Below are positions 46,914 to 53,663 of a DNA stretch of 64,000 nucleotides, in pieces (within the stretch, counting starts at the first letter, position 1; the number at the start of each line of letters is the position of its first letter). The notes beneath the pieces were generated by a model that was given only the letters and a program-made list of their open reading frames with translations, had not been told where the DNA came from and searched no databases. Both the position numbers and the translations under genes were made by a program. Source of the stretch: Helicostylum pulchrum (lineage: Eukaryota; Mucoromycota; Mucoromycetes; Mucorales; Mucoraceae); contig JAIXMO010000020.1 of NCBI GenBank assembly GCA_025677825.1, forward strand, positions 1 to 64,000, given 5' to 3'.

Positions 46914-49900
46914 ATGAAACTCATTCTACTTTTATTGTTTACTACTGCTTCATGTCAGCAACTGCAAAATGCAAACTTTACATTACCGTCGTGCGTAATT
47001 AATACAAATTTAAAAAAAAGACGGCCCCGCATAGCATTTATCTCGCATGATTCAGCCATCGCCACCTTTTTTCATAACCCGGAGCAAGGTTCCCGCGACG
47101 CTGCAAATATTGTTGATATGGATATAGAATGGAATCGCTACCTGACTACTACTGAGACACGTATGGCTCAAGATATTCGGCACGCCGTAGATAATGGCAT
47201 AGATGGTATCATCGCTTCGATACCCAACAACCTTGTGTTTGACGCAATTCAATATGCAAACTCAAAGCGAGTACCCATTATTGTATTTAATTCTGGCTTA
47301 GAGTATGCAAAGTCCTTGGGCCTGTCTCGAGTTATGCAAGACGACGTTGAGGCTGGATTATTAATTGGACAGAATATTGAAAATGGGAATTTTTCTAGAC
47401 CTTTAGTTGTTTATTTATCAAATATGGATCATAAAACTATCAATATAAGAATGAATGGTATTCAAAAAGCCATGTTAGGAAAGGAGCTTGGCGTATTGAA
47501 TATTACAAAAACCCTAACTAATAGTACATTTACGCCTGTTCAATTAATTAGTGATACGTTTAAAAATGGCTTGTATGATTCAATTATTTCATTAGGCGGT
47601 TCTGTAAGTTAAATACCTGCGCATATAATTTTATTTATATTAGCTATTTCTTATGCAAAAATATATATATACATGTATATATTTAGATGTGCGCCGATTT
47701 AGTTTCAACTGCCATGTTAGGTGTTAAACAAAAGTATCCTGATTTGCCAATTGCGTCTGGATTCTTCGATGTGGGCGGAAATAATATGACCGAATTATTT
47801 CATAGGGAGGAAAATACGTTCGCTGTAACTCAACTACCATACTATCAAACTGCTTTACCTGTATTCTACATGTATCTTAGAGTATGATTTTATTACGGCA
47901 TATCGTCACGATAACTCATTTTATTTTATTTTTAGTTGACAACAGGACACGATATCTATTTTAATAGAACAATAAAAACAGGTCCAAATTTAATTACCAA
48001 CGCAACATTACCAATGGTTTTACAGAATGAGCAAAATTCATTAATGAACATCAACGATAAATTTGGCTCGATCGGCGCGATTGTACCTAATACTCGAGGA
48101 GATACATATAACGCAGCTATGATGGCAGGTGTGGTTAACCTAGCGCATAAACTAAACTGGACCGTAATTAATCCTATAAAGGTATGATACACGTGTTCTG
48201 TTTACTATAATACGTATAATTTAACTTTTGTCTCGAGTTCATTTAGGAAGATCCGCTGGATATACCGCAGACATTTCACCAAGATTTGGATTTTTTTATG
48301 CGAAAACAACACACAAATAATATCATTATACAAACAAGCGATCTTTCTCTATTAGATTATGCTGCAAATCGAAGTAAAACATCTCCTGATGTAGGCGTCG
48401 CCGCGATAGGTTCTTTCTTTGAGAGGTTCAACACGACATATCCGTAAATAGTCAATACACATAAAAAATAAGTAATAGATCTATCAAAAAAAAATCTCAC
48501 TATTCCGTAGGGAAATGCCAAATATAGGACTAGACATAAATGAGTTGGCGAAATCAGTTGCAAAGGCCGTATTTGAAGATGGAAAAGGCAAGCCGATTTG
48601 TTACTCAGAGAGAACTACCGTTTTTTTCAGTCCGTTCTGTACTTATTTTTATAGAGAGTATCAAGCATTGCATGGAAATTCTGGGCAGCCTGATTTTAGT
48701 CAAGTTGTTCAATCGGTCTTTATATCATCCCCGAGTGCGATGGAGGATGAGTTCATAGAAACACTAAACAAATTGAGTATTCAAGGATATACCCCCGATA
48801 GCTTCATTACCTTTTCTGAATATGTTTTTTCTATTATTAATAATGTAAGTTTATTACAAACAGCTTAAACCCAAAGCTTATATTTAACTCGACTTTCGTT
48901 TTACAGCGCATGTTGAAGGGGTATTTATCCAATACCACTGCATTATATACAGCCGGAGAGTTATTAGACCAAAACCGCGCCTTTTTAGAAGGTCGAGTTA
49001 AAAGATTATGGTAAGAGAAAAGAATCCCGTCAGATATTATTCAATAATAGAATAACATTTTAATCTTCTCTTATATAGGGCTACCAACATGTTTTCCATA
49101 GGATTTATTACATTACTTTACTCGCTTTTAAGTAAAGTGATGGTTAGTTTTCCTTCTTGGGAAGGTGCACTGATATCAGCACCTCAAATTTTACAAATCT
49201 GTGAACCGGGTACATATCATTTGAACCTAACAACAAGTGCATACTGCCAAGACAGTGAAGGTCATACACATATGTCGATTCAATGTATCCAGTGCCCTGA
49301 AAATACTTACTCTTCTGAGCCAAATCAAGCTTATTGTGACGCATGCGAGTATGGTACCTATTCTTCTGTTGGCTCTTCTGCATGTATCTCGTGTTACAGT
49401 GCGCCCAAGATAGAAAATAATACTATATGCGCAAACTATATTTCTGGACAAGAAGTGGCACACAGACAGCTCTATATGGCCATTTTTATACCTATTGGAA
49501 TATTTTTATTTGCCGTTATAATTGGTGTTATATTATGGTACTTTAAGCGAAGGTTCTTAAAACAGCGGGCGCTAGGAAGTGACGAAAACTGGTTACTGTC
49601 GTTTGACGAATTAGTAAAACCTCAAATATCTGAAAGTCCCGGCGATAGAGAGAATGCATTCATAAAGGAAAAGCAGAGGGATATTATTATGGGGGCTAGT
49701 GGTAGACTTTTAATAGGTGGTTCCTCTTCCAACCCTGCTTCTGGTATGGTTAAGAGAGGAAGCACGCCAGTTGCAGGGCAGGAGCAAACTATAACCATTG
49801 CAGATGATTCCTTTCGACTTTCTAATGGTGGGATCACCTTGACGCCCTCCCTTCCAGAGGCAAATTTAATAGGTACTTTAGACACAGAGGGGGGAATTCA

Positions 49901-52900: not shown

Positions 52901-53663
52901 TGCGATACAGCATCCACAAGGGTTTAGAGAACCGGTGCCAACTCCTATAGATGAGATGGTAAACCCCTTTGATAGTCTTCCACAATCATCTAATTCTACC
53001 ACTCTTTCATCGACTAACTCCATAAATGCCAACTTTACTCAGCTAGAAAACAAGATACACTCGGTAATCAAAAAACCGTTTAAAAATTCGTCTCTGATTA
53101 GTATTTTACATGAACTTCTATCTGGAGAGCAAAGACCGTTAAGAAAACAAAGGTTAGGTTCTGCAGGATCTAACACTTTCCGACTAGTACATCGAGTATC
53201 GGACAGAGGCCGTCAAGCTTCCACAGAAGAAGGCGAGCAATCAATGGCTTACTTGGCTTCTATAAAGACACTAGTTGTTGACGATAACCCAGTGAACCTA
53301 AAAGTGCTCGCTCGTATGCTGACACAGATTGGTATATCTTCAGAAAAAGCCAACAATGGCCGTGAGGCCTATGAGATGATTTTAGACGCTTCCAAAACCG
53401 AAGAACCGTTTCAATTAGTATTTATGGATATCTGGATGCCAGAGTTAAATGGCTTTGAAGCTACTGAAAAAATTAGAAAAGAAGCTGCTTCATCTGCAAC
53501 ACAGCCTTATATCATCGCTTTAACCGCTTGCGTTATGACAGGTGATAGAGAAAAATGTATAGAGGCGGGTATGAACGGTTATGTTAGTAAACCTATACGA
53601 AAAGAAGAACTTGAAGCAGCAATACATACATTTACACAAACCACATCGCAGCCTGACCTTTAA
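46914..53663 (+). CDS. Receptor hybrid histidine kinase with guanylyl-cyclase-receptor-like architecture
   Basis: About 17 exons encode roughly 1,900 residues. In order: signal peptide ([14 protein letters not shown]); a type I periplasmic-binding-protein domain ([50 protein letters not shown]); cysteine-rich GCC2/GCC3-like modules ([29 protein letters not shown]); and one membrane span ([20 protein letters not shown]). A kinase-homology domain follows with [31 protein letters not shown] and LLWLAPES. Then come a signalling helix ([16 protein letters not shown]); HisKA ([20 protein letters not shown]); HATPase ([31 protein letters not shown]); a degenerate receiver; and an intact receiver ([26 protein letters not shown]). 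A ligand signal would drive phosphorelay to a Ypd1-type protein. A possible in-frame intron at 51314-51361 is unresolved. Architecture is certain in outline; ligand is unknown. Confidence 0.9.

Follow-up and report, generated by a model that had tools for sequence, protein, structure and literature searches.

Animal receptor guanylyl cyclases (RGCs), among them GC-A/NPR-A and GC-C, pass the membrane once and carry a kinase-homology domain (KHD), directly followed by a signalling helix, with a cyclase as the output. A gene of the fungus Helicostylum pulchrum, located on the plus strand of contig JAIXMO010000020.1 within positions 1 to 64,000 (the whole stretch of DNA analysed, here called the window), shares with these receptors the single pass, a KHD of the same family and an RGC-type signalling helix directly after it, and a type I binding fold on the outside is also common to both. 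The output differs, in that HisKA, HATPase and receiver domains stand in place of the cyclase, and so does the outside, which has two CUT2/LacI-like domains and a cysteine-rich stalk and lacks an ANF_receptor match. The receptor layout is real and conserved, and the best explanation as a whole, which we consider likely, is that the gene product is a hybrid histidine kinase of the cell surface with a single membrane pass, one of a family in the Mucorales and Mortierellales, with a ligand-to-phosphorelay mechanism.

Other described systems resemble parts of this protein. The fungal hybrid histidine kinases, of which there are 16 groups, share the HisKA, HATPase and receiver domains with their motifs, but the sensor part of the window protein has no Pfam match to PAS, GAF, PHY or HAMP, and the text available on these groups names no layout of this kind. 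The bacterial BarA/GacS kinases and ShkA share an extra receiver-like domain between the HATPase and the final receiver, and ShkA, GacS and RetS lead the Foldseek matches of the fungal relative P0012. BarA is also the best NCBIfam model for the kinase half in 4/4 relatives scanned, but the scores of 345–358 bits are far under the BarA cut-off of 890 and there is no HAMP match. In Bacteroides BT1754 a periplasmic domain that binds fructose is fused to a hybrid histidine kinase (PMC3404733); likened by description, it works in a similar way, but it is bacterial, has an AraC-type DNA-binding output, and no KHD is described for it in the accessible part of that paper.

A literature search by title and start of abstract found no paper describing this arrangement, although an earlier mention is possible. 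A study of histidine kinases in early diverging fungi (PMC5285503) reports unprecedented kinases with membrane helices and may draw Mortierella members in its Figure 2, and in the text available neither 'periplasmic' nor 'guanyl' occurs; both words are likewise absent from the available text of PMC8510515. The fungal signalling-helix versions known in 2006 were all Sln1-like kinases with HAMP, according to PMC1592074.

The domain order of the window protein is signal peptide, two type I periplasmic-binding folds, cysteine-rich stalk, one span, juxtamembrane part, KHD, signalling helix, HisKA, HATPase, an atypical receiver and a canonical receiver. The features are as follows (Pfam domain positions in the text refer to a 1914-residue reading of the gene, and H-box and motif numbering to a 1898-residue reading, see below).

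46914..53663, plus strand: whole gene, predicted 18 exons in one frame, 1898 residues
46914-47603, 47687-47881, 47936-48181, 48247-48443, 48511-48844, 48907-49010, 49079-49981, 50040-50209, 50266-50364, plus strand: exons 1-9
50449-51008, 51068-51136, 51199-51313, 51362-51541, 51602-51693, 51752-51894, 51951-52264, 52324-52376, 52431-53663, plus strand: exons 10-18
51314..51361, plus strand: putative in-frame 48-bp GT-AG intron within the longer open frame, with no stop on read-through, from comparison with relatives
46914..46961, plus strand: signal peptide-like N-terminus, read from the sequence
47028..48016, plus strand: first periplasmic-binding domain, residues 39-322, CUT2 monosaccharide-binding type
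48083..49112, plus strand: second type I periplasmic-binding fold, residues about 345-600, LacI/CcpA-like, invisible by sequence
49194..49412, plus strand: cysteine-rich stalk, residues about 628-700, read from the sequence, with a sub-threshold NCD3G match and Ephrin_rec_like in 13/25 relatives
49479..49535, plus strand: single transmembrane span, residues 723-741, mean hydropathy 3.01
49980..51008, plus strand: KHD of RGC type, residues 890-1166, starting in the last few bases of exon 7 and covering exons 8-10
51098..51375, plus strand: signalling (S) helix running into the DHp helix, residues about 1177-1232, from alignment to GC-A and GC-C
51406..51660, plus strand: HisKA (DHp) with phospho-acceptor His1252, from Pfam, a genome hidden Markov model match and the motif
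51845..52487, plus strand: HATPase_c with N, G1, F and G2 boxes, from Pfam and motifs, boundaries approximate
52554..53121, plus strand: atypical receiver-like domain that separates the HATPase from the final receiver, from P0012 secondary structure, conserved residues and Foldseek, boundaries approximate
53271..53624, plus strand: canonical receiver with VDDNPVN and FMDIWMP motifs, from Pfam and motifs

Most of this order had been proposed in an initial annotation made from the letters of the DNA, and a Pfam search of the full protein agrees with it: Peripla_BP_4 (40-233), kinase (892-1166), HisKA (1259-1323), HATPase (1448-1523) and Response_reg (1785-1902) are all above cut-off. The N-terminus looks like a signal peptide, as proposed, and the proposed single span is borne out by one strong hydrophobic span; a weaker stretch at 593-611 (mean hydropathy 1.75) falls close to where the second binding fold ends. 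The hybrid histidine kinase output stands too, with HisKA, HATPase and receiver and their motifs in the same frame as the KHD. As to the cysteine-rich modules, a stalk can be read in the sequence, and the NCD3G and TNFR-like matches stay below the Pfam cut-off.

The coordinates of the gene are exact, from the start codon at 46914 to the end of the stop codon at 53663. Tracing the frame through successive exons yields a model of 17 exons, with 16/16 introns GT-AG and 54-84 bp long and one open frame of 1914 residues. A better model probably has 18 exons, 17/17 GT-AG introns and 1898 residues, with the 48 bp at 51314-51361 removed as an additional intron. The 16 residues these would encode are read as an intron because 39/40 relatives having an H-box are without them, and a 16-residue insert in the signalling helix was accordingly set aside. 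The exception is the closest relative, P0001 from Thamnidium elegans, against which this stretch diverges, by eye, more than the flanking parts.

Searched against all PDB sequences, the window KHD and helix score 132 bits with GC-A and 78 with GC-C, the next kinase reaching 55, and a family profile built from seven members scores 209 bits with GC-A and 134 with GC-C, compared with 97 for CTR1, the highest other solved kinase, and 87 for B-Raf. With both GC-A and GC-C the alignment does not stop at the end of the kinase fold but carries on, by way of the segment behind it, into the RGC signalling helix. In Foldseek with relative P0012, the GC-A KHD (9bcp) ranks above every other match outside the histidine kinases within the best 50 listed. 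A tree of 25 rows, thinly sampled, groups the two RGCs with 16 fungal rows at 97/99 support and places the fungal rows together at 99/97. Its fungal rows are the window protein and 15 of the 40 relatives described below, its RGC rows are GC-A and GC-C only, taken from alignment pieces, and of the kinases of the same genome it includes 1 of 7 loci, whose branch is very long. Other rows with long branches are GC-C, P0048, P0049 and P0050, and the long-branch joins flagged lie outside the RGC-fungal group. The initial annotation had staked its reading on a relation between this domain and the RGC KHDs, and the scores, profile, tree and Foldseek match all point to one. Judged by these comparisons, the KHD and signalling helix are specifically akin to those of RGCs, and on this central point the initial annotation was right. 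A generic kinase domain was rejected on the same scores, with GC-A and GC-C far above other kinases, and on the tree.

A profile search of the protein database aimed at animal RGCs (E 1e-8) gave 73 proteins among the matches listed: members of this family, fragments, numerous KSR2-like kinases and a few kinases that are of plant origin or unnamed. No cyclase domain is present among these 73 listed rows, though the RGCs in PDB score far higher.

In the window KHD the HRD motif reads HGCL and DFG reads NYG, and it is therefore probably a pseudokinase. Among 24 aligned relatives the HRD position is HG.L in 23/24 and HRFL in 1/24, and the DFG position is DYG in 10, GYG in 10 and NYG in 4; 0/24 rows combine the lysine with both aspartates, that of HRD and that of DFG.

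The proposed signalling helix is supported by alignment to GC-A and GC-C right after the KHD, with 10/26 residues identical to GC-A in the window protein and 13/26 in relative P0014; the helix alone finds no useful match in PDB. From KHD to HisKA the alignment has no gaps, and the junction is strongly conserved in two fungal phyla. From the signalling helix RT to the H-box there are 45 residues in 39/40 H-box relatives, and also in the window protein with the 48-bp intron removed, P0001 being the exception with 62. The spacing was taken from 41 relatives, 40 of which have an H-box (39 from the main relative search and P0042 from the profile search), whereas P0026 ends before it. In the structure model of P0012 a single unbroken helix of 89 residues (320-408) runs from the signalling helix into the first DHp helix.

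The gene does not stand alone but belongs to a family. A search with residues 888-1250 lists 41 proteins, 40 of them fungal (E 1.7e-212 to 2.1e-59) and one a weak Chlamydomonas kinase, and because of these 40 fungal relatives the layout in the window is not a matter of chance. The relatives are from the Mucorales and Mortierellales, Podila and Thamnidium being among the genera. The searches used a prefilter on shared 5-residue words capped at 7996 candidates, and absence from them carries no weight for Rhizopus, Glomeromycotina, chytrids or other eukaryotes. In the precomputed Pfam column the 40 relatives have kinase in 40, HisKA in 39, HATPase in 36, receiver in 35 and the binding domain in 28, with all five in 24. 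Within the H. pulchrum genome the KHD query gives five strong matches, all of them exons of the window gene, and 11 weak matches elsewhere (≤29 bits, 23-31% identity) that look like ordinary kinases, while Peripla_BP_4 has one match, the window gene.

Two or three members per species are present in Phascolomyces (P0008/P0014), Cunninghamella (P0015/P0023), Halteromyces (P0009/P0022) and Chlamydoabsidia (P0016/P0018/P0020), and in the database models of some of these the ectodomain is short or missing. The names given to the relatives in databases include hypothetical protein, 'RGC/RGC protein kinase', guanylate cyclase and histidine kinase. Judging by the second of these names, the KHD has been encountered before in automatic classification, and the name guanylate cyclase is wrong for proteins that lack a cyclase domain. 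P0001, for instance, is named guanylate cyclase in UniRef and has no cyclase domain in its Pfam column.

The ectodomain is a tandem of a CUT2 sugar-binding-like and a LacI-like fold, and not the RGC ligand domain. The initial annotation had it that the gene keeps the first four parts of an RGC, which does not hold for the ectodomain: at E values of up to 1 the window protein has no ANF_receptor (PF01094) match, and the 16 families that 25 relatives match between them (E 0.01) do not include it, and an ANF-type ectodomain was thus rejected. The sugar-binding-type periplasmic fold that it had also proposed is well supported, with Peripla_BP_4 at 47.5 bits (cut-off 35.1) and the first domain aligning over its whole length with its nearest solved structure, the CUT2 monosaccharide-binding protein 4ru1. 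Proteins of this kind, including the rhizopine-binding family, are parts of transporters, but the fungal domain sits in a membrane receptor, and the identity of the P0026 ectodomain to a CUT2 sugar-binding protein is 20-21%. The rhizopine-binding model (NF052284) is the nearest NCBIfam model, scoring 59, 103 and 55 bits in 3/3 ectodomains tested, which does not reach the equivalog cut-off of 420; the value of 103 is for residues 17-315 of P0039 (Podila epigama, Mortierellales) as a piece, which gives 121.7 bits in a full-length scan, and the other two are Mucorales ectodomains. The second half of the ectodomain has no match in a sequence search, and its type I binding fold is visible in the structure model of P0026. 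An ectodomain search of the protein database gives 7 proteins, all members of the same family. In the ectodomain alignment a TGP segment is kept in 25/25 rows and an FFD aspartate in 24/25.

At the other end of the window protein, the cyclase domain PF00211 has no match. The usual acidic pair is not seen in the atypical receiver, and an Asp and Lys-Pro are kept. In P0012 the corresponding D720 and P821 are invariant and K820 near-invariant, which in the structure model we would read as receiver positions, and the best Foldseek match of P0012 is full-length ShkA. The genome has one Hpt match and 21 receiver-domain matches, including the window gene's own and pieces split by introns, and thus a phosphorelay exists for the window gene to feed; an H-box frame was obtained for 3/7 histidine kinase loci tried in the genome. 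The only two cyclase-domain matches in the genome are genes with the order leucine-rich repeats (LRR), PP2C and cyclase, which is the layout of fungal adenylate cyclases, and an exon-by-exon search of the genome found no RGC. These two genes (L021 on C107 and L022 on C98) have open frames near equal in length and are probably duplicated adenylate cyclases.

The most likely mechanism, drawn beyond the anatomy by analogy with RGCs and the fructose sensor BT1754, is that a small polar ligand (best guess a monosaccharide or cyclitol such as inositol) would close the first, CUT2-like domain, and that the tandem binding domains and cysteine-rich stalk would then rearrange a receptor dimer. The span would relay this change to a dimer of the RGC-type pseudokinase, presumably devoid of kinase activity, which may twist or slide the signalling helix, continuous here with the DHp helix rather than with a cyclase. 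Autophosphorylation of His1252 would thereby be switched, in one direction or the other, and phosphate could pass to the C-terminal receiver, to an Hpt protein and on to response regulators.

Several observations weigh against this account. The structure models are of two relatives, P0026 (mean pLDDT 68, with a poorly modelled KHD) and P0012 (70), rather than of the window protein, and each structure alignment row spans one domain, other parts of P0026 being barely tested. There is no Pfam binding-domain match in 12/40 relatives and at least one of the five domain types is missing in 16/40, although some of these gaps are probably truncated gene models. Within the tree the RGC pair is supported at 82/76 only, with GC-C on its long branch, and the rhizopine-family scores are far under the cut-off of that family. 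The database model of P0001 appears to read through the 48-bp intron. This intron has an atypical donor sequence, GTACCT, and the two lengths, 48 and 51 bp, are each divisible by three.

Other explanations can be set against the same data. The KHD could simply be a tyrosine-kinase-like or Raf-type domain of no special kind, or else correspond to the kinase-related domain of known fungal hybrid kinases, which we take to be those of group X, the likeness to RGCs then being convergent. General Pfam kinase models do match it, and the figure legend of a review names a serine/threonine kinase related domain among the sensor domains of fungal hybrid kinases (PMC4965123). Nonetheless, in both the single-sequence and the profile searches the RGCs score far above all other solved kinases, a comparison in which group X sequences did not figure; the match also takes in a stretch beyond the kinase fold, and the tree support is as above, making convergence very improbable. 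It is more improbable still that two adjacent genes, for a KHD receptor and a histidine kinase, have been wrongly joined. The gene model is a prediction, P0026 is annotated without HisKA, and P0003, P0009 and P0018 are without HATPase and receiver matches, but in 39/40 relatives HisKA is in the same predicted protein, across an unbroken KHD-HisKA junction conserved in both phyla, and the splice sites preserve the frame; a two-gene reading was therefore rejected. The KHD could also be a working protein kinase, giving the protein two outputs, and the lysine at the VAIK position (16/24 rows), DYG in 10/24 and an HRD-position aspartate (HGDL) in six Mortierellales rows lean that way. However, the three residues occur together in 0/24 rows, arginine replaces the lysine in the six HGDL rows, where the DFG position reads GYG, and the window has HGCL and NYG, and we regard catalysis by the KHD as quite improbable.

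The ectodomain leaves more room for doubt, in that it may no longer bind a small molecule and may sense a peptide, a protein or wall strain. RGC ligand domains bind peptides on a similar type I fold, and the second domain, LacI-like in its fold, matches nothing by sequence. Moreover, the segment QLP..Q, which by analogy with the ribose-binding protein we presume to belong to the sugar site, is kept in just 13/25 rows, and one common ligand is therefore doubtful. Since the first domain aligns over its full length with a monosaccharide-binding protein and the FFD aspartate and TGP segment are nearly or fully constant, we nevertheless think loss of small-molecule binding unlikely, if by no means far-fetched, and retain a receptor for a small polar ligand as the preferred reading.

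Elsewhere in the window, the downstream neighbour (54678-56189, plus strand) is a PLAA-like WD40-PFU-PUL gene, beyond which lies a myosin motor gene (56718-58793, minus strand). A CSL-type transcription factor gene with LAG1-DNAbind and beta-trefoil domains is at 11234-13459 (minus strand), an open frame at 3781-6168 (minus strand) encodes a protein kinase domain behind a below-cut-off kelch-repeat match, and an open frame of 415 residues at 40679-41923 (plus strand) has no Pfam match at 1e-5.

Each half of this protein comes from a known superfamily, and what is new is the combination, with the RGC transducer outside the cyclases, which we did not find described in the literature searched. 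The finding corrects database entries that name such proteins guanylate cyclases, and the receptor would be, to our knowledge, the first candidate for a sugar- or cyclitol-type cell-surface receptor feeding a phosphorelay in the Mucoromycota and Mortierellomycota. We tentatively suggest that the RGC transducer, KHD plus signalling helix, could be an output-neutral allosteric module, confined neither to animals nor to cyclases, which here may have been coupled, with the helices in register, to a histidine kinase, and also to sugar- or cyclitol-binding domains of bacterial type. The product would be a eukaryotic chemoreceptor through which a sugar or a compound like inositol outside the cell is signalled to the Hpt phosphorelay. 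How a KHD pseudokinase and signalling helix relay a ligand signal across the membrane is a central open point for the natriuretic-peptide, guanylin and retinal cyclases, and a natural family in which the same transducer drives a different enzyme makes it possible to ask which of its parts signalling requires and which serve the cyclase only.

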